From the NCBI GenBank assembly GCA_016867975.1, contig VGIC01000021.1, positions 1-34,238 on the forward strand: a DNA stretch of 34,238 bases. The letters are read 5' to 3'. Below are positions 1,867-30,510 of this stretch, in pieces (the stretch's first letter is position 1; every line of letters starts with the position of its first letter). Source of the DNA: Betaproteobacteria bacterium. GTDB taxonomy: Bacteria > Pseudomonadota > Gammaproteobacteria > Burkholderiales > Methylophilaceae. Below the pieces are notes generated by a model, which was given only the letters and a program-made list of their open reading frames with translations, was not told where the DNA came from and made no database searches. A program made the position numbers and the translations under genes.

Positions 1867-2143
1867 AGGGCACTTCTATCAATACATTTTGTGCGAGCTT
1901 TGAGCTACGCTCAAACGCCTGCAAAAAGCAAATTATCAACCTCGCTGTATAACCCATACTATCTTGGCTTTTGCATTCCGTGCGCTTTTGACATGTGAAC
2001 AATGCGCTTCAGCGCATATATTCCACGGACATGCCCTTTCACTCTTTTCTTACTGCTTAAGCCGCATAGAGAAGAGGGGAAGCCCTTTACGGGGTTACGG
2101 GTATACTGCATATCAAACTCTGCATTTATTATAGAAGCGCCCT
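1867..2143 (+). repeat. MITE-like intergenic repeat, copy 1 (277 bp, both ends)
   Basis: This fills nearly all of the 312-bp hpf-hprK spacer. The left end AGGGCACTTCTATCAATACA and the reverse complement of the right end, AGGGCGCTTCTATAATAAAT, form imperfect terminal inverted repeats. Internal palindromes include ATGCGC-TTCA-GCGCAT and TTTGAGC-TAC-GCTCAAA. The segment around ATGCGC through ATTCCACGGACATGCCC aligns with copy 5 (22976-23160), where the hairpin loop differs (TTTG) but the stem is kept. No open reading frame of note. Being longer than other copies, it may carry a secondary insertion in its right half. Confidence 0.8.
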
Positions 2144-2157
2144 AAAGAAGGTGAGAC

Positions 2158-2484
2158 TTAATCTATTTGTTGGTGCTTAACAGCGCCTTTGACTTTATGA
2201 TGGTCAGCATGTTTTTCTTTATGTTTTACCACCTGACGGTCAAGCTTATCTGTCAGCATATCGATTGCACTGTACATATTTTCATCCTTACACTCTGCAT
2301 GCAAATCGTTGCCGGGGACATGTAGTGTTGCCTCCACCTTTTGAGCGAGCTTTTCTACACTTAAAGTCACTTTGACGTCGATGACATGATCAAAGTGATT
2401 GCTAATTCGAGACAATTTGCTTGTCACATAATCGCGTAAAGCAGGGGTTACTTCTAAATGATGACCGGTTAATTGTAAATTCAT
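2158..2484 (-). CDS. hpf: Ribosome hibernation-promoting factor, short form (HPF/YfiA family)
   Basis: 108 residues from the ATG at 2484, beginning MNLQLTGHHLEVTPALRDYV. An upstream in-frame ATG at 2535 would add 17 unconserved residues. The internal start is preferred because it has a good AAAGGAG Shine-Dalgarno six bases upstream. The sequence has the beta-alpha-beta-beta-beta-alpha pattern of the family, ending in a His/Lys-rich tail. HPF binds the 30S subunit and forms inactive 100S ribosomes in stationary phase. It lies downstream of rpoN as in most proteobacteria, but intergenic repeats sit on both sides (1867-2143 and 2693-2870). The C-terminal domain of long HPF is absent. Confidence 0.92.
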   Translation of the reverse strand: MNLQLTGHHLEVTPALRDYVTSKLSRISNHFDHVIDVKVTLSVEKLAQKVEATLHVPGNDLHAECKDENMYSAIDMLTDKLDRQVVKHKEKHADHHKVKGAVKHQQID

Positions 2485-2692
2485 GACATACTCCTTTAAA
2501 AATATCCCACAGAGCCGAATGCCGGGCAAGCACACACAAACTCCATGAAACGTTTTCAGTTTACTACTTTAATCTCACTCTGCGCTAGGGGATGACTGAT
2601 TTTTTTCTATTCCCATCACAAGGAAAGGCAAAGAGCAACTCTCAGATTCAAAAATAGCATACTGATTGAGAAAAAAGATTCGGGATTCTTAC
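2485..2692 (-). other. hpf upstream region
   Basis: Together with repeat copy 2 this makes a 384-bp gap between rpoN and hpf. Apart from the Shine-Dalgarno at the hpf start I see no convincing sigma-70 or sigma-54 promoter: no GG-N10-GC match at the expected place. The stretch is A/T-rich and non-coding in all frames by inspection. It probably holds an hpf promoter that I cannot pin down. Confidence 0.4.
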
Positions 2693-2870
2693 AGAGTGCG
2701 TCTAAAAATGCAGAGTTTGAGATGCAGTATTACCCGTAAAGTCTGCGTGGGACTTTAACATCACGCGTAAGGCTAACGAAGGTTAGAATTTCCTGTAGGA
2801 GCGCTCAAGTGATTTTAGCAGGCAAGTAGCAAAGCGGTGCTCACAAAGAATGTTTTGACAGAAGAACCCT
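2693..2870 (-). repeat. MITE-like intergenic repeat, copy 2 (178 bp, both ends)
   Basis: Read on the minus strand it starts AGGGTTCTTCTGTCAAAACA, continues through TTGCTACTTGCCTGC and ACTTGAGCG, and ends with the complement of AGAGTGCGTCTAAAAATGCA. The right-hand 60 bp (TGCAGAGTTTGAGATGCAGT then ATTACCCGTA) matches copy 5 almost base for base. The left terminus begins inside the rpoN stop codon: the AG of TAG is the first two bases of the element. Any rpoN-hpf cotranscript would contain the whole fold-back. Confidence 0.8.
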
Positions 2871-4431
2871 ACAGTGATTTTCTTAAGTTGGCTGGTGCAA
2901 TATTCAGAGATTCACGGTACTTAGCAATGGTGCGGCGCGCCACCACTATGCCCTGCTTAACCAACAAATTGGTGATTTGATTATCAGAGTAAGGCTTCTG
3001 GGGAGACTCTTGATCAACTAACTGCTTAATCAGCGCCCTAATAGCGATCGCAGAACAGGTCCCTCCGCTTTCTGTGGAGACTGAACTACCAAAGAAATAT
3101 TTCAGCTCAAAAATACCACGAGGGGTGAGCATATACTTATTAGTGGTCACACGCGAGATAGTAGACTCATGCAAATCAAGCTCATCCGCGATTTCTCTCA
3201 ACACCAGAGGCCGCATAGCCACTTCACCATATTCCAGAAAATTGCGCTGACGGTCCACAATGGCCTGAGAAACTCTCAGAATCGTAGAGAATCGCTGCTG
3301 AATATTTTTAATCATCCATTTTGCTTCCTGCATCTGACTTTGCAGATACTGAGTGGAGCTATCACGATTGCGTTTCAAAATGCCCGCATACAACTGGTTA
3401 ATTTTTAGCTTTGGCATGACCGCCTCATTAAGACTGGCAATCCAAATACCTTTGACCTTTTTTACAATCACTTCATGTTGAATATATTGCTCCGAGCCAA
3501 TCGTACTGAACACACTACCTGGTCTTGGATTCAGACGGGTGATTAAGCACTGCACCTGCTTCAACGTGTCCTCATCACAGCCTAGTTTTCTGCGCAATTT
3601 AATAAAGTCACGAGAGGCCAATATAGCCAAATGCTCCTGTACAAGTGTCTTCGCCAATGCCACATGAGGCACATCTTCAGGCATTACATCCAATTGCAGA
3701 AGCAAGCACTCACTGAGATTTCGCGCGCCAACCCCTGGAGGATCCAGATGTTGCACTAGATGCAGTGCTGTTTGCAACTCTACAGCATCCACTTCCAATG
3801 CCAGTGGCAGTTGCTCCACCAGATCATCAAGCGACACCTCCAGATAACCATCTTCATTCACACTATCCACGAGCAACAACACCAGTGTTTGATCGCGATC
3901 CGATAGAGGCATCAACTTCAGCTGGGAAAGCAGATGCTCACGCAAGCTGATCTGCAAGGTTTCCTGTGGTCTAAAATCACTATCATCATCAGCAGGCGTG
4001 GTGTTTTCATCCCAGCGACCAGCGCTTGAAAACTCATCGTAGTCCTCACTGAACTCGACCGAATATTCTTCATTAAAATCCGACTCATCCGCTTCGGCTG
4101 GCTGGACAGTATCTGCAAGCAGTCGTTCAGACACATTGCCTGCAGAATCACGCACATCAAAGTCGATCTCTCCAAGCTCATCAGGCGGCCCCAAATCCAA
4201 TGCATGCTGAGAGTCTGGAGTGGCTGGCTCATCCAAGCCTTTTTCATCTATGGGGTTGCCGTATTCATCCTCATGATCATCGCCATGCTCAAGCAGAGGA
4301 TTGGTTTGCATCAGAGCCTCGATCTCTTGATTCAACTCCAAGGTTGAAAGCTGTAACAGTCGAATTGCCTGCTGTAGCTGCGGCGTAAGCGCAAGGTTTT
4401 GAGAGAGCCGAAGTTGTAGCCCCTGCCTCAT
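2869..4431 (-). CDS. rpoN: RNA polymerase sigma-54 factor
   Basis: 520 residues. The Gln/Leu-rich N-terminal activator-interaction region (residues 1-50, with [20 protein letters not shown]) is followed by a long acidic linker (about 50-160), the core-binding domain, a helix-turn-helix near 400-420 ([17 protein letters not shown]) and the C-terminal RpoN box [10 protein letters not shown] near residue 500. It directs RNA polymerase to -24/-12 promoters and needs AAA+ activators. The start codon overlaps the lptB stop as ATGA, so it is cotranscribed with the LPS transport genes. The stop codon runs into repeat copy 2, so the reading frame may end at or near the repeat insertion point; the last residues still look like a normal RpoN C-terminus. 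Confidence 0.97.
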
Positions 4432-5150
4432 AGACGGAAGTCTTTACCTAGATACACCTCGCGCACCGCCTCATTGGTCACAATTTCACTTGGAATTCCC
4501 GCAGCAAAGACATGTCCCTGATTAACGATATAAGCGCGATCACAAATATCCAGTGTTTCGCGTACATTGTGGTCGGTAATAAGGACGCCAATATTGCGCG
4601 CACTCAAGAAACGAATAATCTGCTGAATATCAATGACAGCGATCGGGTCAATGCCAGCAAATGGCTCATCCAGCAAAATAAAGTTGGGATTGGAAGCCAA
4701 ACAACGAGCGATCTCGACACGACGACGCTCACCGCCAGATAAACTAACGGCCGCACTGTCGCGAATATGTGTGATATGGAGGTCTGCCAGCAACACCTCT
4801 AACTTCTCATTCATCGCCTGTTCGGTCATGTCCTGCAACTGCAGAATAGCCATGATGTTTTCTGCGACCGTCAGCTTGCGGAAGATAGATGGCTCCTGTG
4901 GTAAATACGCCAAGCCCATTCTGGCGCGCAAATGAATCGGCTGATGGCTTAAATCCACACCATCCAATGTGATCTTTCCGTCATCCAACGGCACCAACCC
5001 TACAATCATATAAAAACTGGTGGTCTTCCCCGCACCGTTGGGACCCAACAAACCGACGACCTCGCCACTTTTAATGGTCAAGGAAATATCCTGCACCACC
5101 GTTCGCGATTGATATGATTTGCGCAGATTTTCTACTACCAATTCACTCAT
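4428..5150 (-). CDS. lptB: LPS export ABC transporter ATP-binding protein LptB
   Basis: 240 residues. Walker A is GPNGAGKT near residues 35-42, the ABC signature is [16 protein letters not shown] near 137-152, and Walker B is [13 protein letters not shown] near 157-169. These are the features of the LptB ATPase that powers LPS extraction from the inner membrane with LptF/LptG. It starts 15 bp after lptA and overlaps rpoN by 4 bp. LptF and LptG are not in the window, as is usual since they lie elsewhere. Confidence 0.96.
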
Positions 5151-5165
5151 GATGACTCTTCTTTT

Positions 5166-5879
5166 TTATTTTGGCTGACTACTCACTTCAAGACTACGGC
5201 TGAAACGCATGTTTTTTGTTGCGGTGGCAGTGTCGCTTGAGGTGGTTGCTCCTGAACTACTTACATTGTTCTTGGCTGGACTTTCCGTAGGTTTAGGCAC
5301 CGTGTTATCAGGGGCCTTCTTATTCTTAGGCTGGATAATCGCACGGACTCGGCCACCCTGCGCGCCAGATGATGTTGCTGAGCCCCCCCCTCCAATCACC
5401 TCAGCATACTCCGCATTGGCGTCATACATAATGTACTCCCCATGTACGATATCCTCGCCCCGCTTTACCCAAGCCTTGGTATACAGTTGCACTTTATCCA
5501 TGCGCCCATCATATTCGATACGTTGCGCACTTCCCTCCATGTATTCGTTCTTACCCTCGCGCTTCTGCCTAAATGTGGTTGGATTACCTAAGGAGGTGCT
5601 ATGCTGAAACCCCTCACTATCTTCACGCACGATCAACTTATCAGCACGGATCACCAAGGTTCCCTGTGTCAAAATGACGTTGCCACTATAGGTGCTCGTC
5701 TGCCTAGCATCATCCACTTTTACCGAATCCGCTTCCAGATCAATCGGCTTATCTCGATCGGCTGTTTCAGCCAGAACCTCGCAAGACAGTCCTAGCAAGC
5801 TCAGACTCAGCAACAGGATACCGGTCGAAACCAGCACCCTTTGCACTGGGCCCTGTAAATTGATCATCATGTTATTCAT
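5166..5879 (-). CDS. lptA: LPS transport periplasmic protein LptA
   Basis: 237 residues. An N-terminal signal peptide has a hydrophobic core around VLVSTGILLLSLSLLGLSC and probable cleavage after EVLA (residue 37). It is followed by the OstA/LptA beta-jellyroll (IDLEADSVKVDDARQTSTYSG onward in shorter segments). The last 60 residues are a Ser/Thr/Lys-rich low-complexity tail. LptA bridges LptC and LptD across the periplasm. The start at 5879 is supported by GGAG just upstream and overlaps the end of lptC by 8 bp. The coding strand has a run of eight G (C8 at 5383-5390 on the plus strand) encoding glycines at the jellyroll-tail junction. Confidence 0.93.
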   Translation of the reverse strand: MNNMMINLQGPVQRVLVSTGILLLSLSLLGLSCEVLAETADRDKPIDLEADSVKVDDARQTSTYSGNVILTQGTLVIRADKLIVREDSEGFQHSTSLGNPTTFRQKREGKNEYMEGSAQRIEYDGRMDKVQLYTKAWVKRGEDIVHGEYIMYDANAEYAEVIGGGGSATSSGAQGGRVRAIIQPKNKKAPDNTVPKPTESPAKNNVSSSGATTSSDTATATKNMRFSRSLEVSSQPK

Positions 5880-6663
5880 AGCGTCTCCGAATGCGACCGT
5901 TTCCCTGTTCTGTCGTCTGCTTGTTACTGCCCACAGGGTTGTTGATGGTTGCCGATTTTTTCTTTACCTGATTGGGCAATTTTGCACTAGGTTTCATTGT
6001 AGGTTTTCTTGTCACTATAGATTTTTTCGTCACCGTAGATTTGTTTGTCATTTGAGCTCCTTTTTTTGACTTTTTGGCAGCCCCTATTGGACGCTCATAG
6101 TGTGCTTTCACTTTATGCTTCAAGGTCAAAGTCCGTTTTTTCTTCTCATACTCCATGCCCGTGGCATAAATCACCGTTTTAGGAGCCTGCCTGATGATCA
6201 CTGGACTTGCCGTTGTGACCAACTCATCGTTCGGGCGGATATTGAGATGCTCCGTGTCTACAGTCATCTCGCCTTTGCCTGCAAAGGCTTGACGAATTAC
6301 CCTAACCTGATCAACCAACTCTACGTCTTCGCCATCACTAGACACATACCCTCGCAAAGCATGAACTTGCGTATAGGGTTTGTCTGTCTCAAATTGCGTG
6401 TAACGTGGGCGCTGTAATTCAGTGCTGTCATCGTCAGGAAAATGGCGCATTTCCTTAGCTGCCAACTTGTAGCGAAGTTTGCCATTCGCATCGGTCTGTG
6501 TCGTCACAAAATCCGTCATAATGTAATCTGGATCATGACGACTACTCCCATCAATCTTTGGAGCCACTGGCTGTACTGCTCTATTGATCCAGAAAGTAAT
6601 CCCCGCCAACAAAAACAGTAGCAGCAATGGAAATGCGATTGCAGAGCGCCCCCCTAATTGCAT
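5872..6663 (-). CDS. lptC: LPS export protein LptC with a long basic C-terminal tail
   Basis: 263 residues. A single N-terminal membrane anchor (about 8-28, FPLLLLFLLAGITFWI) is followed by the LptC jellyroll with DPDYIMTDF and a pattern of short beta strands to about residue 190. LptC is usually near 190 residues, so residues 191-263 are extra. They are rich in Lys/Thr/Ser/Arg and contain a hexapeptide repeat (TNKSTV, TKKSIV, TRKPTM at 206-223). LptC takes LPS from LptB2FG and passes it to LptA. It overlaps lptA by 8 bp, consistent with coupled translation. The tail could be electrostatic or species-specific; no function is assigned. Confidence 0.9.
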   Translation of the reverse strand: MQLGGRSAIAFPLLLLFLLAGITFWINRAVQPVAPKIDGSSRHDPDYIMTDFVTTQTDANGKLRYKLAAKEMRHFPDDDSTELQRPRYTQFETDKPYTQVHALRGYVSSDGEDVELVDQVRVIRQAFAGKGEMTVDTEHLNIRPNDELVTTASPVIIRQAPKTVIYATGMEYEKKKRTLTLKHKVKAHYERPIGAAKKSKKGAQMTNKSTVTKKSIVTRKPTMKPSAKLPNQVKKKSATINNPVGSNKQTTEQGNGRIRRRYE

Positions 6664-6700
6664 ACTACCACTCTCATTCTCATGAATTCTAAACGATCGC

Positions 6701-7258
6701 CTAGTTCGTGATGCTGGCTCGCGTCAAAAACGGTGCCATCTGTGCTTCGAACGTCCCCTGCGCCTGCATGATCAACTCACAGACTTCGCGTACCGCCCCA
6801 CGACCACCGGCTTTACGCGTCACGTAGTGCGCTCTTTCCAGCAGCAAGACAGGGGAATCTGGAACGGCAATTGCCAAACCACACTGCAACATGGGTGGTA
6901 AGTCCACCACATCATCCCCCATGAACGCGCATTGCGCAGGTAGCAGACCGCTAGCTTTCACCAAATCATAGAGCGCTGCCAATTTATCTTCCGCACCTTG
7001 ATAAAAATGAGCTACCCCCGTACTCTCGGCACGCTTCTTCACAACATTGGAGGTGCGTCCCGTAATGATTGCCAAGTCAACCCCAGAGGCCTTGAGTAAT
7101 TTCATCCCCAATCCGTCATGCGCATGAAAGGTCTTGTACTCCTGACCATCATCCCCGATGGTCAGACCACCATCTGTCATGACGCCATCCACATCCAATA
7201 TCAGCAACCTGATGGCCTTTAAACGCTGATTCAATTCTGGAGTTATCTCGAATGCCAC
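6701..7258 (-). CDS. kdsC: 3-deoxy-D-manno-octulosonate 8-phosphate phosphatase
   Basis: 185 residues of the HAD superfamily class C0 (KdsC/YrbI). Motif I is LLILDVDGVMTDG near residues 18-30, motif II includes AIITGRTS near 60-67, motif III is the Lys in AESTGVAHFYQGAEDK and motif IV is AFMGDDVVDLP. It hydrolyses Kdo-8-phosphate in the core lipopolysaccharide pathway. The start is a GTG directly after the kdsD stop codon (TAG then GTG) with AAGGTGGT upstream as Shine-Dalgarno inside kdsD, so the two are tightly coupled. Confidence 0.95.
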   Translation of the reverse strand: MAFEITPELNQRLKAIRLLILDVDGVMTDGGLTIGDDGQEYKTFHAHDGLGMKLLKASGVDLAIITGRTSNVVKKRAESTGVAHFYQGAEDKLAALYDLVKASGLLPAQCAFMGDDVVDLPPMLQCGLAIAVPDSPVLLLERAHYVTRKAGGRGAVREVCELIMQAQGTFEAQMAPFLTRASITN

Positions 7259-8266
7259 CTATACCACCTTAGCCATTAACAAATCATGCATGTTCAGCGC
7301 ACCTACTAAAATACCGTTATCATCGACCACGAGCAATCCACTGATTTTTTGCTGCTCCATCATCTCAACAGCGACGATGGCCAACTCATCCTGATGAATC
7401 GTTTTGGGATGAGGATGCATTACCTCTATCACGGTAGCGCTCGACATATCAATCTTACGCTCAATGGTGCGACGCAAGTCCCCATCAGTGAAAATCCCCA
7501 CTGGTCGACACGCTTCATCGACAATCGCCGTAAACCCCAACCCTTTACGCGTCATTTCCAGCAAACCTTCAGCCAAAGTAGCCGTTTCCGGCACCTCCGG
7601 AATTGCAGCATCGGTTCGCATCAAATCGCTGATATGAATCAGCAAACGGCGCCCCAAGCTACCTCCCGGGTGCGAGCGAGCAAAGTCCTCTGCAGTAAAA
7701 TCTCGCAAATCCAACACGCACAAAGCCAAAGCATCTCCCAAGGCAAGCGCAACGGTGGTACTGGAAGTCGGGGCCAACCCTAAAGGACACGCCTCCTTTG
7801 ACACATGCGCACTCAAATGTATATCGGCAGCCATGGCCAGCGAAGAATCATCTTTGCCTGTAATGGCAATGATACGGGCACCCAGCCTTTTCAAAGGGGG
7901 AACGATTGCGAGCAATTCATCACTCTCTCCGGAGTTAGAAAGCGCCAACACCACATCCCCCGCCATAATCATGCCCAAGTCACCGTGACTCGCTTCTGCT
8001 GGATGCATAAAAAAAGCCGGGGTACCAGTACTCGCCAGCGTAGATGCGATCTTCCCCCCAATATGCCCTGACTTACCCATCCCAGTCACCACGACGCGAC
8101 CGCTACAATGCAAGATCAGCTCAACCGCATCAGAAAAACGCTTATCAAGACGCTTAGCAAGCGCGTTGATTTCAGCTGCTTCTACCTGCAACACCTCTTG
8201 CGCCAATTGCACAACGCCCTGGGAACCACCGAAACTTGATGTCATATTGTCTGATTGAGTGAACAT
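7259..8266 (-). CDS. kdsD: D-arabinose-5-phosphate isomerase
   Basis: 335 residues. A SIS sugar-isomerase domain occupies about residues 40-170, with GMGKSGHIGGKIASTLASTG and the conserved HPAEASHGDLGM and SNSGES segments. Two CBS domains follow (about 205-335). It converts ribulose-5-phosphate to arabinose-5-phosphate, the first step to Kdo. It heads the Kdo/LPS operon. I keep the first ATG at 8266, but M8 (8245) is a possible alternative since neither has a clear Shine-Dalgarno. A short intergenic repeat begins 9 bp upstream of the start. Confidence 0.94.
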   Translation of the reverse strand: MFTQSDNMTSSFGGSQGVVQLAQEVLQVEAAEINALAKRLDKRFSDAVELILHCSGRVVVTGMGKSGHIGGKIASTLASTGTPAFFMHPAEASHGDLGMIMAGDVVLALSNSGESDELLAIVPPLKRLGARIIAITGKDDSSLAMAADIHLSAHVSKEACPLGLAPTSSTTVALALGDALALCVLDLRDFTAEDFARSHPGGSLGRRLLIHISDLMRTDAAIPEVPETATLAEGLLEMTRKGLGFTAIVDEACRPVGIFTDGDLRRTIERKIDMSSATVIEVMHPHPKTIHQDELAIVAVEMMEQQKISGLLVVDDNGILVGALNMHDLLMAKVV

Positions 8267-8274
8267 ATTGCTAA

Positions 8275-8364
8275 AAGACGCCTCTATGCAATGCAGGTTT
8301 TGATATGCAGTACAAAGCGCACGGAACGCAGTAATGCAACCAAAAAATGATTATAGAAGTACCC
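8275..8364 (-). repeat. MITE-like intergenic repeat, copy 3 (90 bp, internally deleted)
   Basis: The plus-strand start AGACGCCTCTATGCAATGCA matches the right-end complement of the other copies, including the following TTTGATATGCAGTA. The far end, read in reverse complement, is TGGGTACTTCTATAATCATT, the left-end type. The middle has AAAGCGCACGGAACGCA, which matches copy 1 (AAAGCGCACGGAATGCA on the minus strand). It therefore looks like a deletion derivative keeping both termini. It sits in the divergent kdsD/antiporter spacer, close to the kdsD start, and could affect the kdsD leader. Confidence 0.65.
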
Positions 8365-8538
8365 AGAATTAAAAATCTCTCTACCCTCGCCACCAACATC
8401 GAAATGTCAGCTAGCTTTAAGTTCCATTTTAAGCAATATACACAAAAAATCCATACGTTAGGCACAGATTTTGCTAAACACTCGCTTTTTAACTAGGATT
8501 TAGCCTAAAATAGCCCGAGATCAATTGAACTCTGATAC

Positions 8539-10524
8539 ATGTTTGACACTTTACCCCTCATCCTCATTCTGCTGATTAGCTCCGTGTTGGCGGTGGCGCT
8601 ATTCCGCGCACTCAGAATCCCCCTCATGCTGGCCTATTTCTTGGTAGGTTTACTACTGGGACAACACGCCACTGGATTGCTCCCTGACAATGAGGCCGGT
8701 CGCGAGTTAGCCGAATTTGGTATCGTATTCTTGATGTTCAGCATTGGTCTCGAATTCAGCCTGCCTCAACTGTATGCTATGCGAAATAAGCTCTTGGGCT
8801 TAGGTGGCGCTCAAGTTTTCTTCACTCTGGCAATCACCATGGGCATCACCAAGCTGGCAGGTTTAGACTGGCCAGCAGCATTTGTCATTGGATCAGCACT
8901 GACCATGTCATCCACTGCTATTGTTTCCAAGATTCTAGCCGAGCGCATCGATCTGAACTCACGGCACGGGCGGCTCAGTATCGGCGTACTATTATTCCAA
9001 GACATCATCGTAGTACCAGTCTTGGTCATCATCCCCGCGCTCGGTAATGCCAATGCCGACTTGTTTAACGTGCTAAGCATCGCCCTGCTCAAAGCGGCAG
9101 CGATGCTACTTTTCCTGTTCACGATAGGCAAATGGCTCATCAATCCCTGGTTTAATTTGGTTGCAGCCCAGCGCTCACGCGAGTTGTTCGTGATGAACGT
9201 ACTCATGGTCACCTTGCTGCTGGCTTATGCAAGCAACCTTGCTGGTCTGTCTTATGCGCTAGGGGCCTTTATTGCAGGCATGCTAATCTCCGAAACCAAA
9301 TATCGCTATCAAGTGGAATCTGACATCTCGCCTTTCAGGGATATTTTACTGGGTCTGTTTTTTATCAGCGTTGGAACGTTACTCAATCTGCAACAAGTTA
9401 TGCATCACATCGGCCTGATACTACTGGTGCTATTCTGTTTCATCTTATTCAAGGCGCTCATCGTCGCTGCATTGGTCCGCGCCGTCAAATACGAGACCGG
9501 AGTAGCGATTCGCACCGGTCTTATTCTTGCTCAGGCAGGGGAATTCGGATTCGTAATCCTTGCCTTAGGGACCGAACAGCAACTCATCAGTGGCGAACCA
9601 CTCCAAATCATCCTGGTGGTAGCACTGCTCTCAATGGTAATCGCCCCTATCCTCATTCAATATAACGGACGCATCGCTAGGCGACTGGTATCTAGCTACA
9701 CCCGCAACAGCGGACAAGTTGTGCAAGATATTGATGACGCAGGCAAACACTTGAACAATCATGTCATCCTCTGTGGCTACGGGCGTAGCGGGCAATATCT
9801 GGGGCGATTCCTTAAAGAAGAAAACATTCCTTACATCGCGCTGGACATCGATGCGGCAAGAGTCTTAGAGGCAGCGGCGGCAGGTGACAACGTGATGTAT
9901 GGTGACGCGGGTCGGCGCGTGGTTCTCGAAGCTGCCGGCGGGGCTCGTGCCAAAGCTCTGATCGTGAGCTACGCAGATAATCGCGCTGCAATGAAAATCT
10001 TGCATATCGTACAAGAAAAATATCCCCACCTGCCCGTGATCGTGCGTACAGTAGACGACACCAACATGGACTCCTTACGTGAGGCTGGCGCAGCCGAGGT
10101 CGTACCTGAGATTCTAGAAGGCAGCCTGATGCTGGCCTCGCACGCCTTGATGCTGCTAGGCGTACCACTGAATCGCGTGGTCAAACGCATTCGTCTATTC
10201 CGTGAAGAGCGCTATAAGTTATTCAAGGGTTATTTCCATGGCGTTTCGGACGCAGAAGATGAAAATATCGCAAACCAGCAAGTGCGCCTGCATTCAGTTA
10301 TCATCTCCGCTGGTGCCTATGCTATTGGTAGAAGATTAGCCGATATGCAACTTGATCAGTTTGAAGTAGAGGTCAAATCAATACGACGTCCCAACTCCAA
10401 CGGCGCGCATATTGATAATAACTCACCTTTGGCCGAAGGCGATGTCATCGTACTGCTAGGCCAACCAACGGGGCTAACCAATGCACAGAATGCTATTCTG
10501 ATTGGTCGCCTTGCTAATAAATAA
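8539..10524 (+). CDS. CPA2-family monovalent cation/proton antiporter with RCK domains (KefB/KefC-like)
   Basis: 661 residues. About 380 N-terminal residues form a Na+/H+-exchanger membrane domain with roughly 12 hydrophobic segments. An RCK_N (TrkA-N) Rossmann domain follows, with VILCGYGRSGQYLG near residues 413-426, and a TrkA_C-like domain sits at the C-terminus (about 575-655). The organisation is that of potassium-efflux/proton antiporters of the inner membrane gated by nucleotide or ligand binding. Whether it is regulated by glutathione like E. coli KefB/KefC cannot be told from sequence, so no symbol is given. It is divergent from kdsD, a common arrangement in betaproteobacteria, and is followed after 5 bp by the flavoprotein gene. 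Confidence 0.9.
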   Translation: MFDTLPLILILLISSVLAVALFRALRIPLMLAYFLVGLLLGQHATGLLPDNEAGRELAEFGIVFLMFSIGLEFSLPQLYAMRNKLLGLGGAQVFFTLAITMGITKLAGLDWPAAFVIGSALTMSSTAIVSKILAERIDLNSRHGRLSIGVLLFQDIIVVPVLVIIPALGNANADLFNVLSIALLKAAAMLLFLFTIGKWLINPWFNLVAAQRSRELFVMNVLMVTLLLAYASNLAGLSYALGAFIAGMLISETKYRYQVESDISPFRDILLGLFFISVGTLLNLQQVMHHIGLILLVLFCFILFKALIVAALVRAVKYETGVAIRTGLILAQAGEFGFVILALGTEQQLISGEPLQIILVVALLSMVIAPILIQYNGRIARRLVSSYTRNSGQVVQDIDDAGKHLNNHVILCGYGRSGQYLGRFLKEENIPYIALDIDAARVLEAAAAGDNVMYGDAGRRVVLEAAGGARAKALIVSYADNRAAMKILHIVQEKYPHLPVIVRTVDDTNMDSLREAGAAEVVPEILEGSLMLASHALMLLGVPLNRVVKRIRLFREERYKLFKGYFHGVSDAEDENIANQQVRLHSVIISAGAYAIGRRLADMQLDQFEVEVKSIRRPNSNGAHIDNNSPLAEGDVIVLLGQPTGLTNAQNAILIGRLANK

Positions 10525-13822: not shown

Positions 13823-13890
13823 AGGGCATCTCTATAAATACATTTTTTTGCGAGCAGCAGCTTTGCTGATTACCTGCTTAAACCACTTGA
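13823..13890 (+). repeat. MITE-like intergenic repeat, copy 4 (left half only)
   Basis: AGGGCATCTCTATAAATACA followed by TTTTTTTGCGAGCAGCAGC, a CAGC-TTT-GCTG hairpin, and TACCTGCTTAAACCACTTGA matches the left part of copy 5. It begins at the base after the DUF3465 stop codon and ends 15 bp before the trpC ATG. No right end is found, so this is a solo left half. Confidence 0.75.
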
Positions 13891-22975: not shown

Positions 22976-23160
22976 AGGGCAGTTCTATAAATACATATTT
23001 TGCGAGCATCCGCTTCGCTGATTGCCTACTTAAAACACTTGAGCGCATTACTGTGCTGTGCCTTTGGCGTGTGAATAATGCGCTTTGGCGCATAGATTCC
23101 ACAGACATGCCCTGTACGGGTAATACTACATCTCAAGCTCTGCATTTATAGAGGTATCCT
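22976..23160 (+). repeat. MITE-like intergenic repeat, copy 5 (185 bp, both ends; best reference copy)
   Basis: The left end AGGGCAGTTCTATAAATACA and the reverse-complemented right end AGGATACCTCTATAAATGCA share TCTATAAATrCA, so the termini can pair over about 12 bases plus flanking matches. Inside are GCGAGCATCCGCTTCGCTGA, ACTTGAGCGCATTACTGTGC and the hairpin ATGCGC-TTTG-GCGCAT. It lies between def and fmt, ending 4 bp from the def stop codon. It matches copy 1 along the central part and copy 2 along both ends. Confidence 0.8.
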
Positions 23161-23164
23161 AAAC

Positions 23165-23665: not shown

Positions 23666-23848
23666 AAAAACTCTTTAATTAATCGACTACTTGCTCAAAA
23701 ATATCCACCAAATAAATCGAAAGCCTTTCCATAAAAGCTTGATTCTTGAATGAATTACATGCTAAATTTTGCGTGGTCTCGTGGCACATGTGCCTCATTT
23801 ACATGCCAACCGCCTATCTTGTGCTCGTTAGACCGAGGTCATCCAACT

Positions 23849-24406
23849 ATGTTTCGCTATATTATAACGCTGCTCATGTTTTGTTGCTTAAGCTTGCAGG
23901 TTCAAGCCCAAGTCGTTGAGCTCAACAAAAACCATCCCAACCGTCACATTGTTGTCAAAAATGACACCTTGTGGGGAATCTCAGGAGATCTCTTAAATAA
24001 TCCATGGTTGTGGCTACAGGTGTGGGAACTGAATCGCGATCAAATTAAAAATCCACATTTTATCTACCCTAGTGCCATTAACCACGCGGGCAAGGTAATC
24101 CAAGACCCCGATCCCCCTAAACTAACCGAGGAGCAAATACGAGCCAAAGCCAACGAAAAACCGGAAATCAAAGCGCTAAACTTCAATATTCCTCGGGATG
24201 AAGAAAGTAAGGTCGTCGTCAACTTTGAAAGAACTATGGCACCTTCAGATGCAGCCCCTGAGGCTGACATACTCAATCTCCCTAATGAGCGCCCGAGACT
24301 GCCCATGGCGTTCCGTGTTTTTGACCATGTGCAATATGCCTTGAGCATACAGGCATATGAGCCCGTAAACGTACTGGAGTCGAACAGACTCCCTAAGTCA
24401 ATTTAG
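23849..24406 (+). CDS. LysM-domain exported protein, shorter than its usual relatives
   Basis: 185 residues from the ATG at 23849; an in-frame ATG at 23750 would put 33 unlikely residues before the signal peptide. The signal peptide is MFRYIITLLMFCCLSLQVQA. The LysM domain spans about 30-75, with VKNDTLWGISGDLLNNPWLW and NRDQIKNPHFIYP. The rest is Pro/Glu-rich with a hydrophobic C-terminal strand (FDHVQYALSIQAYEPV). Relatives just upstream of dprA in betaproteobacteria are, as I recall, usually around 330-400 residues. Here the expected IYPGD continuation is replaced by IYPSAINHAG and the middle seems missing. It binds peptidoglycan if the LysM is active. The stop TAG is followed at once by the dprA ATG. 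Confidence 0.8.
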   Translation: MFRYIITLLMFCCLSLQVQAQVVELNKNHPNRHIVVKNDTLWGISGDLLNNPWLWLQVWELNRDQIKNPHFIYPSAINHAGKVIQDPDPPKLTEEQIRAKANEKPEIKALNFNIPRDEESKVVVNFERTMAPSDAAPEADILNLPNERPRLPMAFRVFDHVQYALSIQAYEPVNVLESNRLPKSI

Positions 24407-25561
24407 ATGTCCACCCACAACACCCAAGAAGATTCTCTGCATTTGAAACAAGGCGCAGCGATTGTTGAAAAGTCACTGTGGGTTGCTTTAGGCAATATCA
24501 GCGGCATTGGCTCACAAACTTTCTGCCTGTTACTCAAGACCTTCAGTGGGCCAGATCAAATTTACTCCGCTAGTTTACGTCAATTAAAGGAAGTTGTTTC
24601 TGACTCTATTGCAAAGGCTATCACGCAGGGACCAGAGCAGGCACTCACAGAAACGTTTCAGCAATGGCTTACCCAACCTGACAATCATCTTGTCACACTT
24701 GCGGATTCAGAGTATCCAAAATCATTACTGGAAATTGCCGACCCACCTCCTTTTCTGTATGCAAAAGGCAACCTCAGGCTACTGAATCAACCCAGCATCG
24801 CTATCGTAGGCAGTCGCAATGCTTCTGTGCAAGGGGAAAGGAATGCAGAATTCTTTGCACACGATTTATGCCAATATGGCTTGTGCATTGTCAGCGGTCT
24901 AGCGTTGGGGATTGACGGAGCGGCTCACCGCGGTGCACTTAGCGCAAAGGGTGCCACCATTGCCGTTGTCGGTACAGGCCTGGATATCGTCTATCCGGCA
25001 AAACACCGCGATTTAGCCCATCAGATTGCTGAACACGGGCTGATCATCTCAGAATTTTCACTGGGCACCCCCTCCAAACCGCAAAACTTTCCCAAGCGCA
25101 ACCGGATCATCAGCGGCTTGAGCCTAGGATGTCTCGTAGTGGAAGCCAACCTGCAAAGCGGCTCACAAATTACCGCGCGCTTGGCCGCTGAGCAAGGGCG
25201 GGAAATTTTTGCCATTCCCGGCTCCATCCATTCGCCCATGTCAAAAGGCTGCCACCAACTCATCAAGCAAGGCGCAAAATTGGTCGATTGCACGCAAGAT
25301 ATTGTCGAAGAACTCAAGATTGAAGCCGTATTAGATAGCACATCACTAACTTCAGATGCTAAAACAAAGACCTCAAATCACTCAGATGACAGACCAGGTA
25401 GCAAACTACTTGACGCCATGGGCTTTGAGGCGATGTCCCTGGAGCATCTGGTGAGCATCAGTGGCTTGACGGTAAGCGAAGTTTCATCCATGCTAATGAT
25501 ACTTGAGCTCGAAGGAAAAGTAGCCAGCCTAATAGGAGGACAGTACCAAAAAATCGTGTAG
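24407..25561 (+). CDS. dprA: DNA-processing protein DprA
   Basis: 384 residues. An N-terminal SAM-like helical region is followed by the Rossmann-like DNA-binding core: IAIVGSRNAS near 128-137, IVSGLALGIDGAAHRGAL, GTGLDIVYPAKH, FPKRNRIISGLS and QSGSQITARLAAEQGR. A C-terminal winged-helix segment (about 320-384) closes it. DprA loads RecA on incoming single-stranded DNA during transformation. It starts at the base after the LysM stop codon and is followed by smg. Confidence 0.95.
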   Translation: MSTHNTQEDSLHLKQGAAIVEKSLWVALGNISGIGSQTFCLLLKTFSGPDQIYSASLRQLKEVVSDSIAKAITQGPEQALTETFQQWLTQPDNHLVTLADSEYPKSLLEIADPPPFLYAKGNLRLLNQPSIAIVGSRNASVQGERNAEFFAHDLCQYGLCIVSGLALGIDGAAHRGALSAKGATIAVVGTGLDIVYPAKHRDLAHQIAEHGLIISEFSLGTPSKPQNFPKRNRIISGLSLGCLVVEANLQSGSQITARLAAEQGREIFAIPGSIHSPMSKGCHQLIKQGAKLVDCTQDIVEELKIEAVLDSTSLTSDAKTKTSNHSDDRPGSKLLDAMGFEAMSLEHLVSISGLTVSEVSSMLMILELEGKVASLIGGQYQKIV

Positions 25562-25609
25562 TTCAAAATCCAGCCGTTTGCATAAACCATCTAAATAAGG
25601 ATAACAACT

Positions 25610-26083
25610 ATGTTTGAAGTATTGGTTTACATGTTTGAAAACTACATTGACACGCAATTCAGACCTGACGACAACACATTATCCAAAGAGTTGTTTGCCG
25701 CAGGTTTTGATCAAGACGACATTAACGGCGCATTCGACTGGTTTAATCAACTCGAGTCGATGACCGACAAGCCTGAATCATTTCAAATGGCAGATTCTGC
25801 CAATACCCGTATTTTCACAGACATAGAGCTTAAAAAGATATCCAGCGAGAGTATCGCTTTCATTCTTTTCTTGGTGCAGGCAAATATTCTGAACACATCG
25901 CAGCGCGAACTGGTGTTAGAACTTGCGATGAATGTCCCTCAGGCAGAAATTCGTATTGAAGAAATGCGCTGGATAGTACTCATGACCACATGGGGCGCAA
26001 GTAAATCTGGCCCCGACAAAACCAAAGAATATCTTTTTATTGAAGATATTCTGCTGAATAAACAAAAACCGACGCAACACTAA
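25610..26083 (+). CDS. smg: Smg family protein (DUF494)
   Basis: 157 residues, all-helical, starting MFEVLVYMFENYID, which is the family signature, with the C-terminal MRWIVLMTTW. Function unknown; the gene sits next to dprA in most beta- and gammaproteobacteria. AAGGATA precedes the ATG. The stop codon lies in the loop of an 8-bp dyad and a strong terminator follows within 25 bp. Confidence 0.92.
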   Translation: MFEVLVYMFENYIDTQFRPDDNTLSKELFAAGFDQDDINGAFDWFNQLESMTDKPESFQMADSANTRIFTDIELKKISSESIAFILFLVQANILNTSQRELVLELAMNVPQAEIRIEEMRWIVLMTTWGASKSGPDKTKEYLFIEDILLNKQKPTQH

Positions 26084-26098
26084 AGGTCTAGTCGGTTT
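26066..26098. repeat. Inverted repeat around the smg stop codon
   Basis: AAACCGAC (26066-26073) and GTCGGTTT (26091-26098) are exact complements separated by 17 bases that include the smg stop codon. It can form a hairpin ending in UUU, so it may be a weak terminator in front of the stronger one. Confidence 0.45.
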
Positions 26099-26107
26099 CT
26101 CAAGCAT

Positions 26108-26135
26108 ACGCGTGCACATACTGCACGCGTTTTAT
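26108..26135 (+). terminator. Rho-independent terminator of the LysM-dprA-smg operon
   Basis: Perfect 9-bp stem ACGCGTGCA / TGCACGCGT with a 5-base loop CATAC, followed by TTTATT. The U-tract overlaps the stop codon of the convergent metF gene, so the hairpin may also end metF transcription in the other direction. Confidence 0.8.
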
Positions 26136-26965
26136 TCGCTGATATTATTGATAATACGGCTGATCGTACCCGCCTGATTCAGGGTATAGAAATGCAAACT
26201 TGGCACCCCCCATGCAAGCAGAGTTTCACATAGCTCACTAACCACATCTACACCAAATGCACGTAACGATGCCATATCATCGCCATACTCTTCTAGCCGC
26301 ATCTTCAGCCAGCGAGGGATATCCGCTCCACACACGCTAGAAAAACGGGCCAGCTGGGTGATGTTGTAGATCGGCATAATGCCTGGGACAATAGGCATCG
26401 CGATGCCCAACGCATCGCACTGCTCTACAAACCTAAAATAGGCATCTGCATTATAAAAGTACTGCGTAATCGCGGCATTAGCGCCCACTTCCATCTTACG
26501 CTTCAGATTCTGCAAATCTGCGGCTGGCGTCCTCGCCTCTGGATGAAACTCGGGATAGGCAGCCACTTCAATATTGAAATGATTACCGGTCTCCTGACGA
26601 ATGAACCGCACAAGCTCAGACGCATATCGAAAATCTCCCGCGCTTACCTCTCCGGATGGAACATCACCGCGTAATGCAACCAAACGGTTGATCCCGTGCG
26701 ATTGGTATGCTTGCAGCAGATCTCGAATCTCCTGCTTACTGGAAGAGATGCATGAAATATGGGGAGCTGCAGAGAATCCTTCCTGCTGAATCTCGAGAAC
26801 TGTATCCATGGTGCGATCGCGTGTTGACCCACCTGCCCCAAATGTCACCGAGAAGAATTCTGGATTGAATGCAGCCAACTGTGCACGCGCATCTCGTAGT
26901 TTTTGCATCCCCTCTTCCGTTTTGGGAGGAAAAAACTCAAAACTAACTGTAAATTTTTTTGCCAT
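26132..26965 (-). CDS. metF: 5,10-methylenetetrahydrofolate reductase
   Basis: 277 residues from the ATG at 26965; a GTG three codons upstream (26974) is possible but has no better Shine-Dalgarno. Family marks are VSFEFFPPKTEEG (residues 6-18), VTFGAGGSTRDRT, SCISSSK, LVALRGDVPSG (FAD/folate site), VAAYPEFHPEA and ITQYFYNADAYFRFVEQCD. It produces methyl-THF for methionine synthase using FAD. It is the last gene of the ahcY-holin-like-metF group on the minus strand. Confidence 0.96.
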   Translation of the reverse strand: MAKKFTVSFEFFPPKTEEGMQKLRDARAQLAAFNPEFFSVTFGAGGSTRDRTMDTVLEIQQEGFSAAPHISCISSSKQEIRDLLQAYQSHGINRLVALRGDVPSGEVSAGDFRYASELVRFIRQETGNHFNIEVAAYPEFHPEARTPAADLQNLKRKMEVGANAAITQYFYNADAYFRFVEQCDALGIAMPIVPGIMPIYNITQLARFSSVCGADIPRWLKMRLEEYGDDMASLRAFGVDVVSELCETLLAWGVPSLHFYTLNQAGTISRIINNISE

Positions 26966-27020
26966 TGCTTTCACTTATTTAAGTATTCGTAAGCTCTCGC
27001 TTAAATTCATCTAACTTTTA

Positions 27021-27353
27021 TCAAAATAAGGCCGATAACAACCAAGAAAGCACACTATACACCAGTGCCCCGATAATGCCGGCAAAAATGGTGCTGACCT
27101 CAAAGCCGCCCAGCCAGAAACCAACCCCATAAAACAACAAGCCATTGATCACTAGAATAAACAAACCTAAGGTGAGAATCGTAATCGGCAGCGTCAACAA
27201 CACCAAGATTGGTCGAATCAACATATTCACCAATCCGATAATAAGTGCTGCCAACAATGCTGCCATCACCCCCGCTACATGAATGCCTGGGACCCAATAA
27301 GCCACCGCCAGTAGCGCCAGCGCATTGAGCCCCCACACATACAGCAACTTCAT
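27021..27353 (-). CDS. Phage-holin-family-4-like small membrane protein (PF04020 type)
   Basis: 110 residues with four hydrophobic segments (about 5-25, 28-50, 55-77, 85-108). NMLIRPILVLLTLPITILTL and the following LVINGLLFYG block are typical of the PF04020 group, named after a mycobacteriophage holin but found as a chromosomal protein in many bacteria. No lytic partner is present, so the holin label is only a family name. It lies between ahcY and metF, an arrangement kept in many betaproteobacteria, 10 bp after the ahcY stop. Role unknown. Confidence 0.88.
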   Translation of the reverse strand: MKLLYVWGLNALALLAVAYWVPGIHVAGVMAALLAALIIGLVNMLIRPILVLLTLPITILTLGLFILVINGLLFYGVGFWLGGFEVSTIFAGIIGALVYSVLSWLLSALF

Positions 27354-27363
27354 GCAAACTCGG

Positions 27364-28764
27364 CTAGTAGCGGTAAGTCTCTGGCTTAAATGGGCCTTGC
27401 TTATTCACGCCAATATAAGCCGCTTGTGCATCCGTCAATGTCGACAGCTGTGCATTTAGCTTCTTCAATTGCAGCAATGCCACCTTTTCATCCAGATGCT
27501 TAGGTAAGGTATACACGCCCACTGGATATTTGGCAGTTTGTGTAAACAACTCAATTTGCGCGATAGTTTGGTTGGCAAATGAGGAGCTCATCACATAACT
27601 CGGGTGACCTGTACCACAACCTAGATTCACCAAGCGGCCTTTTGCCAACAGGATGATTTTTTTGCCATCAGGGAAAATCACATGATCTACCTGCGGCTTA
27701 ATTTCATCCCATTGGTATTGTTCCAGTGAGGCGACATCAATCTCGTTATCGAAGTGACCAATGTTACACACAATGGCCTGATCCTTCATTTTAGCCATGT
27801 GGTCATGCGTAATCACATGGTAATTGCCGGTCGCGGTGACAAAAATATCGCCATGTTCAGCGGCGTATTCCATGGTAACTACACGGTAGCCTTCCATCGC
27901 GGCTTGTAGCGCACAGATTGGATCAATTTCAGTCACCCAGACTTGTGCAGAAAGCGCACGTAGCGCTTGCGCAGAGCCTTTACCCACATCGCCATAACCG
28001 GCAACAATGGCAATTTTTCCTGCAATCATCACATCAGTGGCACGTTTGATCGCATCCACCAATGATTCGCGGCAACCATAAAGATTGTCAAATTTAGACT
28101 TGGTCACAGAGTCATTCACATTGATTGCAGGGAAAGCCAGCTTGCCTTCTTTATGCATCTGGTATAGGCGGTGCACACCCGTGGTGGTTTCTTCAGTCAC
28201 CCCTTTAATTTGCGCCAAACGGGTTGAGTACCAGGTAGGATCAACGACCAATTTAGCCTTGATGGCGGAGAACAAACAGGTTTCTTCTTCTGAAGTTGGA
28301 TTTGCTACCAATGATACATCTTTTTCCGCACGTGTACCCAAGTGCAGCAACAATGTTGCATCGCCGCCATCATCCAAAATCATGTTGCTGTTGCCACCAT
28401 CCGTCCATTCAAAAATACGGTGCGTATAATCCCAGTATTCAGCAAGTGTCTCGCCCTTGACAGCAAACACAGGCGTGCCACCTGCCGCAATCGCTGCAGC
28501 TGCGTGATCTTGAGTAGAAAAAATATTGCAAGATGCCCATCGCACTTCTGCACCTAAATCCTTTAACGTTTCAATCAGCACCGCTGTTTGAATCGTCATG
28601 TGCAGGCTGCCAGTAATGCGAGCCCCCTTAAGCGGCTGTGCCTTCGCAAACTCTTCGCGAATCGCCATTAAGCCTGGCATTTCAGTTTCGGCAATCGCAA
28701 TCTCTTTGCGACCAAATGCAGCCAATCCAATATCTGCAATTACATAATCATTAAAGTCTGTCAC
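27364..28764 (-). CDS. ahcY: S-adenosylhomocysteine hydrolase
   Basis: 466 residues from a GTG at 28764, preceded by GAGGAG eight bases upstream. A longer in-frame ATG at 28914 is rejected because it lies inside the SAH riboswitch. Marks are [20 protein letters not shown], the Cys in [15 protein letters not shown]-binding [27 protein letters not shown] and the C-terminal PETYRY. It splits SAH into adenosine and homocysteine. With metK upstream on the same strand and metF downstream it forms an activated-methyl-cycle cluster. Control is probably by the riboswitch in its leader, which raises expression when SAH accumulates. Confidence 0.97.
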
Positions 28765-28853
28765 GGTATCACTCCTCGAATGGTGTGACGGGAGGGAGGG
28801 AGAATAGAGGGAATCCGTCTCACCCCTACCCCGTGCCGGCACGGTTAATTGGT
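28762..28853 (-). promoter_or_regulatory. Probable expression platform and ribosome binding site of ahcY
   Basis: Between the aptamer and the start are the 14-nt palindrome CCGTGCCGGCACGG and a possible long stem GGTGAGACGG / CCGTCACACC (one mismatch) that ends 4 nt before the Shine-Dalgarno GAGGAG. Pyrimidine runs (CTCCCTCCC) could pair with the Shine-Dalgarno. No U-tract is seen, so control at translation initiation is more likely than termination; this is inference. Confidence 0.45.
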
Positions 28854-28924
28854 GAGCGTCGTTGCAACATTTTTCCGAGCCTGGGAGACTGTGTGACCAC
28901 AGCAACTCTCGCAACGCCCCTCAG
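28854..28924 (-). ncRNA. S-adenosylhomocysteine (SAH) riboswitch, ahcY leader
   Basis: On the minus strand CTGAG (28924-28920) pairs with CTCGG (28879-28875) as P1. The 5' strand GGGCGTTGC is followed by a P2 arm with the perfect hairpin CTGTG-GTCA-CACAG, then the conserved CCCAGGCTCGG, and finally GCAACGACGCTC (28865-28854), the pseudoknot strand. This order and the invariant segments match the SAH aptamer known upstream of ahcY and metH genes in beta- and gammaproteobacteria. It lies just after a good sigma-70 promoter and about 90 nt before the GTG start. Confidence 0.88.
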
Positions 28925-28933
28925 AACAGTTTG

Positions 28934-28963
28934 ATTATACTAGGGAAACACGGAGCAAGTCCA
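28934..28963 (-). promoter_or_regulatory. Sigma-70 promoter of ahcY
   Basis: A perfect -10 TATAAT (28934-28939, minus strand) and a -35 TGGACT (28958-28963) are separated by 18 bp. The start of transcription would fall near 28926-28928, just before the first base of the riboswitch P1 helix, which supports the assignment. Confidence 0.75.
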
Positions 28964-29201
28964 CATCCAAGCCTTTTGAAACATCCATCACCACTTCCTT
29001 TGAGGGGCTGTCCCGTAGTTTCTTTAAGCCCCCTACTCATTCAGCTTGAAGGATTTTATCCAAGAAGGTGGTTCATTTACGAACCTTTCAGTTCGTAAAT
29101 GAACATGCCTAAACGCACCTGGCTTACTGGGATCGTCTTTAACATGAATGCCAAAACTTCCCTCAACAATTAAGCACCCATTCAATCCGACTGCAAAACG
29201 C
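28964..29201. other. ahcY-metK spacer with a perfect 14-bp hairpin
   Basis: This is the rest of the 437-bp gap between ahcY and metK. GTTCATTTACGAAC (29071-29084) and GTTCGTAAATGAAC (29091-29104) are exact inverted repeats with loop CTTTCA. No U-tract follows on either strand, so it is not a plain intrinsic terminator. A weaker AGGGGCT...AGCCCCCT dyad lies near 29002-29037. No ORF with coding character is seen. Confidence 0.6.
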
Positions 29202-30365
29202 TTACAGCCCTGCTGCTACGCGCAAGGCCGCAGCTTTGTCGGTTTTTTCCCAACCAAATTCTGGCTCATCTCGACCAAAGTGACCGTAGGCCGCTGTTTT
29301 AGTGTAAATCGGACGCAACAGATCTAACATTCTAACGATGCCTTTGGGACGCAAATCAAAATATTCGTTCACCAAAGCCGTCAGCACCTCGTTCGAAACT
29401 TTACCAGTGCCATACGTTTCCACCATCACAGACGTGGGGCGTGCCACGCCAATCGCATAACTCACCTGCACCATGCAACGAGAGGCCAAGCCAGCCGCTA
29501 CGATGTTTTTAGCCACATAGCGCCCCGCGTAGGCTGCGCTACGATCCACTTTAGAAGGATCTTTACCAGAGAATGCGCCACCACCGTGAGGTGCTGCGCC
29601 ACCGTAAGTATCTACGATAATTTTACGACCCGTCAAACCGCAATCGCCTTGCGGACCGCCAATCACAAAACGTCCGGTCGGGTTCACCAAAAACTTAATA
29701 TCCCCTTTGACCAACTCTTTCGGCAATACTGGCTTGATAATTTCCTCTATCGTCGCTTCACGCACCTGCTCCAACGTCATTTCTGGCGCGTGCTGTGTTG
29801 AGACGACTACGGTGTCAATCTTATGCGGCTTACCATCTACATATTGCACGGTGACCTGTGATTTCGCATCCGGTCGCAACCATGGTAAACGACCATCTTT
29901 ACGCAACTGCGCCTGGCGCTCCATGAGGCGATGGCTTAACCAGATTGGCAATGGCATCAATTGCGGCGTTTCGTCCACCGCATAACCAAACATCAAACCT
30001 TGGTCACCCGCACCTTGATCCAAGAGATCATCATGTGCACCATCCACGCCCTGCGCAATATCAGGAGACTGTTTGTCATACGCCACCAATACAGCGCACC
30101 CCTTATAGTCGATACCATATTCTGTATTGTCATAACCAATGCGCTTAATGGTGTCACGCGCGACTTTAATGTAATCGACATTCGCTGTTGTCGTAACCTC
30201 ACCCGCCAGTACAATTAAGCCGGTGTTGGCCAATGTCTCTGCCGCTACACGTGCAGTCGGGTCTTGGGTTAAAATAGCGTCTAGAATACTGTCTGAAACT
30301 TGGTCAGCTAACTTGTCTGGATGACCTTCAGAAACGGACTCGGAAGTAAATAAGTAAGAATTCAT
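29202..30365 (-). CDS. metK: S-adenosylmethionine synthetase
   Basis: 387 residues from the ATG at 30365 ([20 protein letters not shown]), preceded by AAGG. An upstream in-frame ATG (30599) would start inside dapF on the other strand and run through a repeat, so it is rejected. Marks are [29 protein letters not shown], the P-loop-like [15 protein letters not shown] and [14 protein letters not shown]-type segments. It makes SAM from ATP and methionine. It is divergent from dapF. Its short leader holds a terminator-like hairpin that may attenuate transcription. Confidence 0.97.
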
Positions 30366-30390
30366 GATCTGCCTTGGAAGATTAAAGTTT

Positions 30391-30420
30391 AAAAAACGCT
30401 TACTAAAGGCTAAAGCAAGC
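30391..30420 (-). terminator. Terminator-like hairpin in the metK leader (possible attenuator)
   Basis: On the minus strand GCTTGCT (30420-30414) pairs with AGTAAGC (30404-30398), with one G-T pair and a 9-base loop TTAGCCTTT, followed by GTTTTTT. It lies between the -10 box and the metK start, so it would end transcripts before the gene unless bypassed. No known SAM riboswitch is recognisable around it. Confidence 0.5.
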
Positions 30421-30435
30421 ATAAAAAGGATGCAC

Positions 30436-30441
30436 ATTATA
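30436..30441 (-). promoter_or_regulatory. -10 box of a metK promoter
   Basis: A perfect TATAAT on the minus strand, 71 bp upstream of the metK ATG. No good -35 hexamer is found at 16-18 bp; that region is the left end of repeat copy 6, so the repeat may supply or have replaced the -35. Confidence 0.5.
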
Positions 30442-30446
30442 ACTGA

Positions 30447-30510
30447 AAGGCATGCTATCAATACATTTTTGCGAGCATCAGCTTCGCCGATTGCCTGCTT
30501 AACCAACTTG
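30447..30510 (+). repeat. MITE-like intergenic repeat, copy 6 (left half only)
   Basis: AAGGCATGCTATCAATACAT followed by TTTTGCGAGCATCAGCTTCG and GATTGCCTGCTTAACCAACTTG matches the left halves of copies 4 and 5. No right end is found. It lies in the divergent metK/dapF spacer between the metK -10 region and dapF. A short direct repeat GCGAGCATC occurs at 30471 and again at 30510. Confidence 0.7.

Follow-up and report, generated by a model that had tools for sequence, protein, structure and literature searches.

Six repeat copies and the family of their ends

The window analysed here is the whole 34,238-nt stretch of contig C21 from a 1.56-Mb Methylotenera assembly (completeness 92.7%). It contains six copies of a repeat of the miniature inverted-repeat transposable element (MITE) kind and, within two of them, a separate double hairpin of 57–58 bp, here termed U, which is the main subject of this report; genomes and loci are cited by codes of the form G### and L###, respectively. 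All six stretches claimed by the first-pass annotation were located. Copy 1 (1868..2142, plus strand) is complete and flanked by TAAA on either side (1864–1867 and 2143–2146), copy 2 (2694..2869, minus strand) is diverged and reversed with both ends between two TACA flanks (2690–2693 and 2870–2873), and copy 5 (22977..23159, plus strand) has both ends, flanks of TAGA and TAAA, and a module, m1, at ~22998–23036. Copy 4 (13824..13890, plus strand) consists of a left end and m1 (~13846–13884), and copy 6 (30447..30510, plus strand) of a degenerate left end and m1 (~30467–30505); in both, m1 is a 39-bp hairpin. Copy 3 (~8277..8364, minus strand) is degenerate, and its single clear end is the right one. 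The copies are real repeats, but mosaics rather than variants of a single sequence, with copy 2 reversed. Copy 6 counts as lying between genes or not according to which start is taken for the frame at 29202–30599, which overlaps this copy as listed.

Copy 1 gave 62 blast matches, including itself, across the 1.56-Mb genome, and its 20-base left end, allowing up to three mismatches, occurs at 41 genomic places versus 0 for the same pattern read backwards; the repeat is therefore more than chance. With up to two mismatches, the MITE end pattern was found at 53 places in its own genome, and 16 of the 61 genomes searched contained matches. In the own genome, 25 paired copies carry terminal inverted ends GGGCRCTTCTATAAATRCA, two-ended copies beginning GGGCACTTCTATAAATACATTTTT and finishing CTCTGCATTTATAGAAGCGCCC, and 13 of the 25 sit between exact 4-bp target duplications, compared with 0, 1, 0 and 0 of 25 in four shifted controls. 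Among 20 relatives with both genes flanking copy 1, the spacer is short in 19, while in G009 it carries another repeat with a U match inside. These inverted ends, 4-bp duplications and repeat-free short orthologous spacers, together with an end shared elsewhere with an IS5-type transposase neighbour, uphold the MITE label. Membership of the enterobacterial repetitive intergenic consensus (ERIC) family is not borne out: in the portion of a review that describes them, ERICs have 7-bp inverted ends with TA at the termini (PMC2229807), and both ends and duplication differ, the ends of the present copies being of the IS5 type, as judged from that description with no ERIC sequence compared. "ERIC-like" is fair as an analogy. 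In locus L267 of G012, the region between the genes matching window positions 2158–2535 and 2869–4431 spans ~960 bp, versus 120–240 bp in most relatives, and possibly holds an extra gene.

The absence of a transposase noted earlier extends to the whole own genome (92.7% complete), where a DDE_Tnp_1 search returned no match. In the Sulfuricella metagenome-assembled genome (MAG) CROMO_A_6, by contrast, an IS5-type transposase C-terminus is found ~130 bp away from the same end; the contigs end within the repeat, and this C-terminus scores 44.9 bits against the IS5 model, under the full-length cut-off. In addition, G051 carries eight distinct copies of a complete 1.33-kb insertion sequence (IS) with the end GGGCATCTCTAAAAAT, related but not identical to the Methylotenera MITE ends, and five have exact 4-bp duplications. 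In the translated IS copy L223 (of L223–L235), the IS5-like transposase is divided between two frames of 302 and 169 codons, the latter listed for nine matches (corresponding to the eight distinct copies); the split may reflect programmed frameshifting or a defect common to the copies. Long frames beside single ends in L098 and L183 were considered as transposases and rejected, since by eye they resemble a chemoreceptor and a helicase. Because the same end adjoins the Sulfuricella transposase and the G051 elements combine related ends with 4-bp duplications, there is good support for an IS5-group enzyme mobilising the MITEs in trans, although the search did not reveal which one exactly serves the Methylotenera copies.

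The MITE end is also present, among the matches listed (at least 108 stretches), in Methylophilus, Gallionella, Sideroxydans, Sulfuricella, Nitrosomonas, Comamonadaceae and Undibacterium and in MAGs labelled Halothiobacillus or Gammaproteobacteria, as well as in a few single hits in Bacteroidetes and one cyanobacterium that may be due to chance. In these loci and those of the relatives of the own genome, 43 of 91 end pairs (including two own-genome copies and a few false pairs sharing one end) are 140–145 bp long. Plain scaffolds form one hairpin over their entire length of ~142 bp (141.8 ± 1.3 within copies preselected at 138–146 bp). Of 44 copies in this length range, 40 fold into a single full-length hairpin (mean z −5.9 versus dinucleotide shuffles), and their cores have a median identity of 60%, versus 54% in a shuffled control. 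Global alignment of the 44 scaffolds gave no consensus fold; a 21-member subgroup did, with two-sided changes in 16 of 41 pairs and a covariation of 0.251 versus 0.109 shuffled.

In the own genome, the same interior also occurs between two other end types. Nine paired copies have GAGACCTTTGCAAAA ends, three with exact 5-bp duplications (counted by eye, without a control), and GGAAACACTGATTAAAT ends bound two pairs found by script and one more by eye; five of the 11 paired copies of these two types measure 143 or 144 bp. Longer MITEs differ from plain scaffolds, in the pairs compared, by steps of 39 bp (m1), 46 or 57 bp (m2) and 58 bp (U), and by eye m1 and m2 are also found in MITEs of Methylophilus, Gallionella and Sideroxydans. 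The MITE part is ordinary, a new family of the known IS5-group kind: it shares with IS5-group MITEs the inverted ends, the 4-bp duplications and the IS5-type transposase adjoining the same end elsewhere, and differs in its interior, a mosaic of hairpin modules common to two other end types.

Several further observations concern these interiors. The hairpin modules m1 and m2, shared across genera (as in L156, L161, L128, L215, L115 and L148), have stems that seemingly change in pairs. In L168 (2816–2944) and L171 (2768–2898), inverted ends of the same kind enclose palindromes of other origin, including one of the GGGAATCCAG...CTGGATTCCC type; such ends therefore capture other hairpins too. L131 (1728–2307) and L196 (Gammaproteobacteria MC-03) have an insert of ~300 bp (ACTGTCCCGTTAAG...) within the MITE. 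Elsewhere in the window, an S-adenosylhomocysteine (SAH) riboswitch at 28847–28928 on the minus strand (51 bits) was the sole Rfam match to reach its gathering score.

Structure and distribution of unit U

The first-pass annotation had described an ATGCGC-N4-GCGCAT hairpin in copies 1 and 5 whose stem is kept while its loop drifts. The hairpin is present in both copies, at 2002–2017 (loop TTCA) and 23078–23093 (loop TTTG), but it is not a trait of the MITE. It is the inner stem of U, and across units it is the loop that is more conserved and the stem that changes. In the first hairpin of U, an outer stem of 9 bp and an inner stem of 5 bp are separated by a small internal loop and capped by TTTA or TTCA; after four bases follows a second hairpin with a 5-bp stem and a 5-base loop.

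We built a model, R1, from twelve hand-picked units. These seeds showed a covariation of 0.718, compared with 0.211 in shuffled and at most 0.175 in slid alignments, and the 79 distinct units collected with R1 gave 0.709 (0.200 shuffled, at most 0.132 slid). Standard pairs occupy 91.7% of the cells of the 79-unit alignment, which was fitted to the U structure. Length is 57 or 58 nt in 69 of the 79 units, and the median identity between units is 62%. The alignments revealed no conserved GTAG or CGTC tag, and the first four positions vary (TCAC, TCGC, TGGC).

Copy 1 contains two units, one inside the other. The outer U (1989..2103, plus strand) is broken in its second-hairpin loop, with the model matching 1989–2038 (22.5 bits) and the remainder, TACGGGTA, recognised by eye at 2096–2103. 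The interruption is an inner U (2039..2096, plus strand; 58.7 bits, its end uncertain by one base) nested in GCCCTT^TACGGG. Copy 5 holds a unit at 23065..23122 (plus strand; 42.8 bits). In the genome scans, R1 was scored on 150 of 427 candidates and on up to 108 per genome, which makes the U counts lower bounds: at least 61 places at E ≤ 1 and at least 50 at E ≤ 1e-4 in the own genome, and 0 to 45 matches per genome at E ≤ 1e-5 in Methylotenera, where 49 of 52 genomes have matches and G349, G346 and G024 are among those with many. R1 was also run on 100 and then 46 loci, short stretches around MITEs that included other genera. All 15 matches in these loci came from Methylotenera or same-genus sequences, the other genera being covered by the short MITE-flanking stretches only.

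The contexts of U are diverse. Units lie inside MITEs of all three end types, in the second-hairpin loop of another U (window 2039–2096, L043 and L294), in the first-hairpin loop of another U (L247 and L322), in the loop of GTAGGTCGGGATT-type repetitive extragenic palindromic sequences (REPs; L347) and on their own (L286 and L126). End-to-end alignment of RNase P RNA from three genomes to Rfam RF00010 placed a U in helix P3 of G000 and G350, while G020 has a minimal P3; the two P3 units have different stems with pairing preserved. At the orthologous positions of window copies 1 and 2, a U match was present in one of 21 loci, L266.

Insertion sites and possible movement of U

Comparison of sibling copies with and without U revealed a 58-bp difference in 4 comparisons and no visible target duplication. 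Flank statistics were based on 75 of 82 matches (seven cut or interrupted ones were dropped), leaving 43 clusters, with distinct contexts numbering 73 or 70. CTT or CTTA directly precedes U in 23 of the 43 clusters, versus 2.2% of positions (loci L285–L381), and perfect stems of at least 6 bp surround the insertion site in 6 of the 43, versus 1.6% of CTT sites (p 5e-5). In minimum-energy folds, 26 of 73 U sites fall in a hairpin loop, compared with 22% of all positions (p 0.007). Targeting of loops is weak when judged from these folds and clearer from the count of surrounding stems. The CTT preference is thus real and incomplete, and hairpin loops are enriched without being required. Nesting is accounted for by the ability of U to carry CTT in both loops and in the internal loop.

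We consider a two-layer account probable, with moderate confidence. In the first layer, an IS5-group transposase acting in trans would move the GGGCRCTTCTATAAATRCA-ended MITEs and leave a 4-bp duplication. In the second, U would enter, often just 3′ of CTT, without visible duplication and often within hairpins including its own loops, and insertion into hairpins would therefore produce nested units and mosaic MITEs. U would be a minimal element that is not autonomous and whose single-stranded DNA is transposed by an enzyme of the Y1/HUH type, resembling those of IS200/IS605 or the REP-associated tyrosine transposases (RAYTs). Single-strand transposition is suggested by the lack of duplication, the short motif before the site and the two hairpins. 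The structure, length, covariation and contexts of U, and the lack of duplication between siblings, are observed; movement of U in its own right, and the kind of enzyme responsible, we infer. Y1_Tnp matches were found in 30 of 52 genomes, with a median of 11 U in genomes that have them and 3 in those that do not (Spearman 0.46, p 6e-4, uncorrected for ancestry). The Y1 proteins of the genus include three large clusters.

Several results weigh against this account. No Y1_Tnp match was found in G012, which has 25 U; the three genomes without a U match (G005, G008 and G029) all have Y1_Tnp, and the Y1 gene of the own genome contains an in-frame stop. Eight U matches (E ≤ 1e-5) lie in 6 of 60 Y1 loci, but in the four of these inspected by eye the Y1 gene comes with its own GTAG-type palindromes; a RAYT as the partner of U is not supported locally. 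As for the sites, CTT(A) is missing from 20 of the 43 clusters, with TTCCG^TGCG a recurrent exception inside MITEs, and the 26 of 73 loop sites are not clearly above YTT-matched positions (28%, p 0.09). Two-sided change in 16 of 19 pairs of U does not exceed shuffles, 183 of 500 of which reach 16, and a structure-free alignment of the units yielded only part of hairpin 1 with RNAalifold.

That U is not itself mobile, but rides as cargo in MITEs and REPs and varies through recombination and hairpin-templated repair that preserves pairing, seems doubtful. Many units do lie within other repeats, the MITE scaffolds covary too (0.251 versus 0.109), and one interior is common to three end types. Cargo does not readily explain the solitary copies L286 and L126, an RNase P helix P3 that bears U in two genomes and lacks it in the third, or the multiple different positions that U takes within one scaffold in 58-bp steps. 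Movement through an RNA intermediate, as proposed for double-hairpin elements of Allomyces mitochondria in the relevant passages of PMC2800124, is improbable. This published suggestion, the lack of a visible target duplication and the location of U in an RNA gene would agree with it, but it leaves the CTT before the site unexplained. Least probable is that U serves the cell as an RNA element and is kept at its sites by selection, since the strong covariation, near-constant length and matches in 49 of 52 genomes that would favour it stand against a range of 0 to 45 matches per genome, nesting of U in its own loops, a U in only 1 of 21 loci orthologous to copies 1 and 2 (L266), and an Rfam search of ten repeat-bearing loci that returned, at E ≤ 1, only a tRNA locus and a match on the same spot.

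We also propose tentatively, and at lower confidence than the two-layer account, that U is a bacterial mobile element recognised by shape rather than sequence: with a fixed length and loop and free stems, it would enter after CTT without duplication, use hairpins as landing sites, carry such sites itself, and so nest in MITEs, REPs, itself and RNase P RNA. RAYTs, according to part of a published account, cleave at CT in a manner that depends on bases of the loop or on a mismatch within the stem (PMC8266576).

Relation of U to known repeats and its implications

Non-autonomous elements of the IS200/IS605 type are marked by end hairpins, a lack of duplication and a fixed motif before the site; U has two hairpins and no visible duplication, with CTT(A) in 23 of 43 clusters only. 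REPs and bacterial interspersed mosaic elements (BIMEs) are likewise small, high-copy intergenic hairpins with a stem mismatch, as the sections on them describe (PMC3733652, PMC8266576), and REP dimers inside longer palindromes are reported in the former. U differs in lacking a conserved GTAG or CGTC tag, in its two unequal hairpins within a fixed 57–58 bp, and in having no RAYT tied to it. ERIC and the Rickettsia palindromic elements are also intergenic hairpins, and the consulted part of PMC2229807 notes that repeats have inserted into RNA genes; their ends differ, and nested double hairpins go unmentioned in that part.

The nearest description found for U is that of the double-hairpin elements of fungal mitochondria, which are described as lacking duplications and for which an RNA intermediate has been suggested (cited in PMC2800124). 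They are similar in their two hairpins, lack of target duplication and presence in spacers and RNA genes. In contrast, U resides on a bacterial chromosome and has a conserved loop with changing stems, whereas the sponge elements of the same paper keep their stems. The passages on mitochondrial elements there make no mention of nesting or of a CTT preference, and the likeness is one of features. In bacteria, the families EFA-1 and Pae-1, named in PMC2267715, are repeated and have a predicted double hairpin, and the likeness to U concerns these two traits. U is unusual, yet bacterial double-hairpin repeat families are already on record, as the same source attests. By their titles, other papers on double hairpin elements deal with sponge mitochondria and dinoflagellates. 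Searches of the open-access literature turned up no bacterial unit of constant length and variable stems that inserts into loops of its own kind, and no match for repetitive extragenic palindromic elements in Methylotenera.

Bacterial genomes commonly contain small palindromic repeats, most of which spread in ways that are still unclear; U bears on this question. Within one genus, genomes hold up to dozens of units whose length, structure and insertion point can be delimited to about one base, and even the gene of a ribozyme needed by all cells, RNase P RNA, carries U in helix P3. U explains the mosaic look of intergenic repeats in such genomes. Because it is a precisely bounded unit with varied stems but preserved pairing, the mobilisation of hairpins by their shape becomes directly testable.

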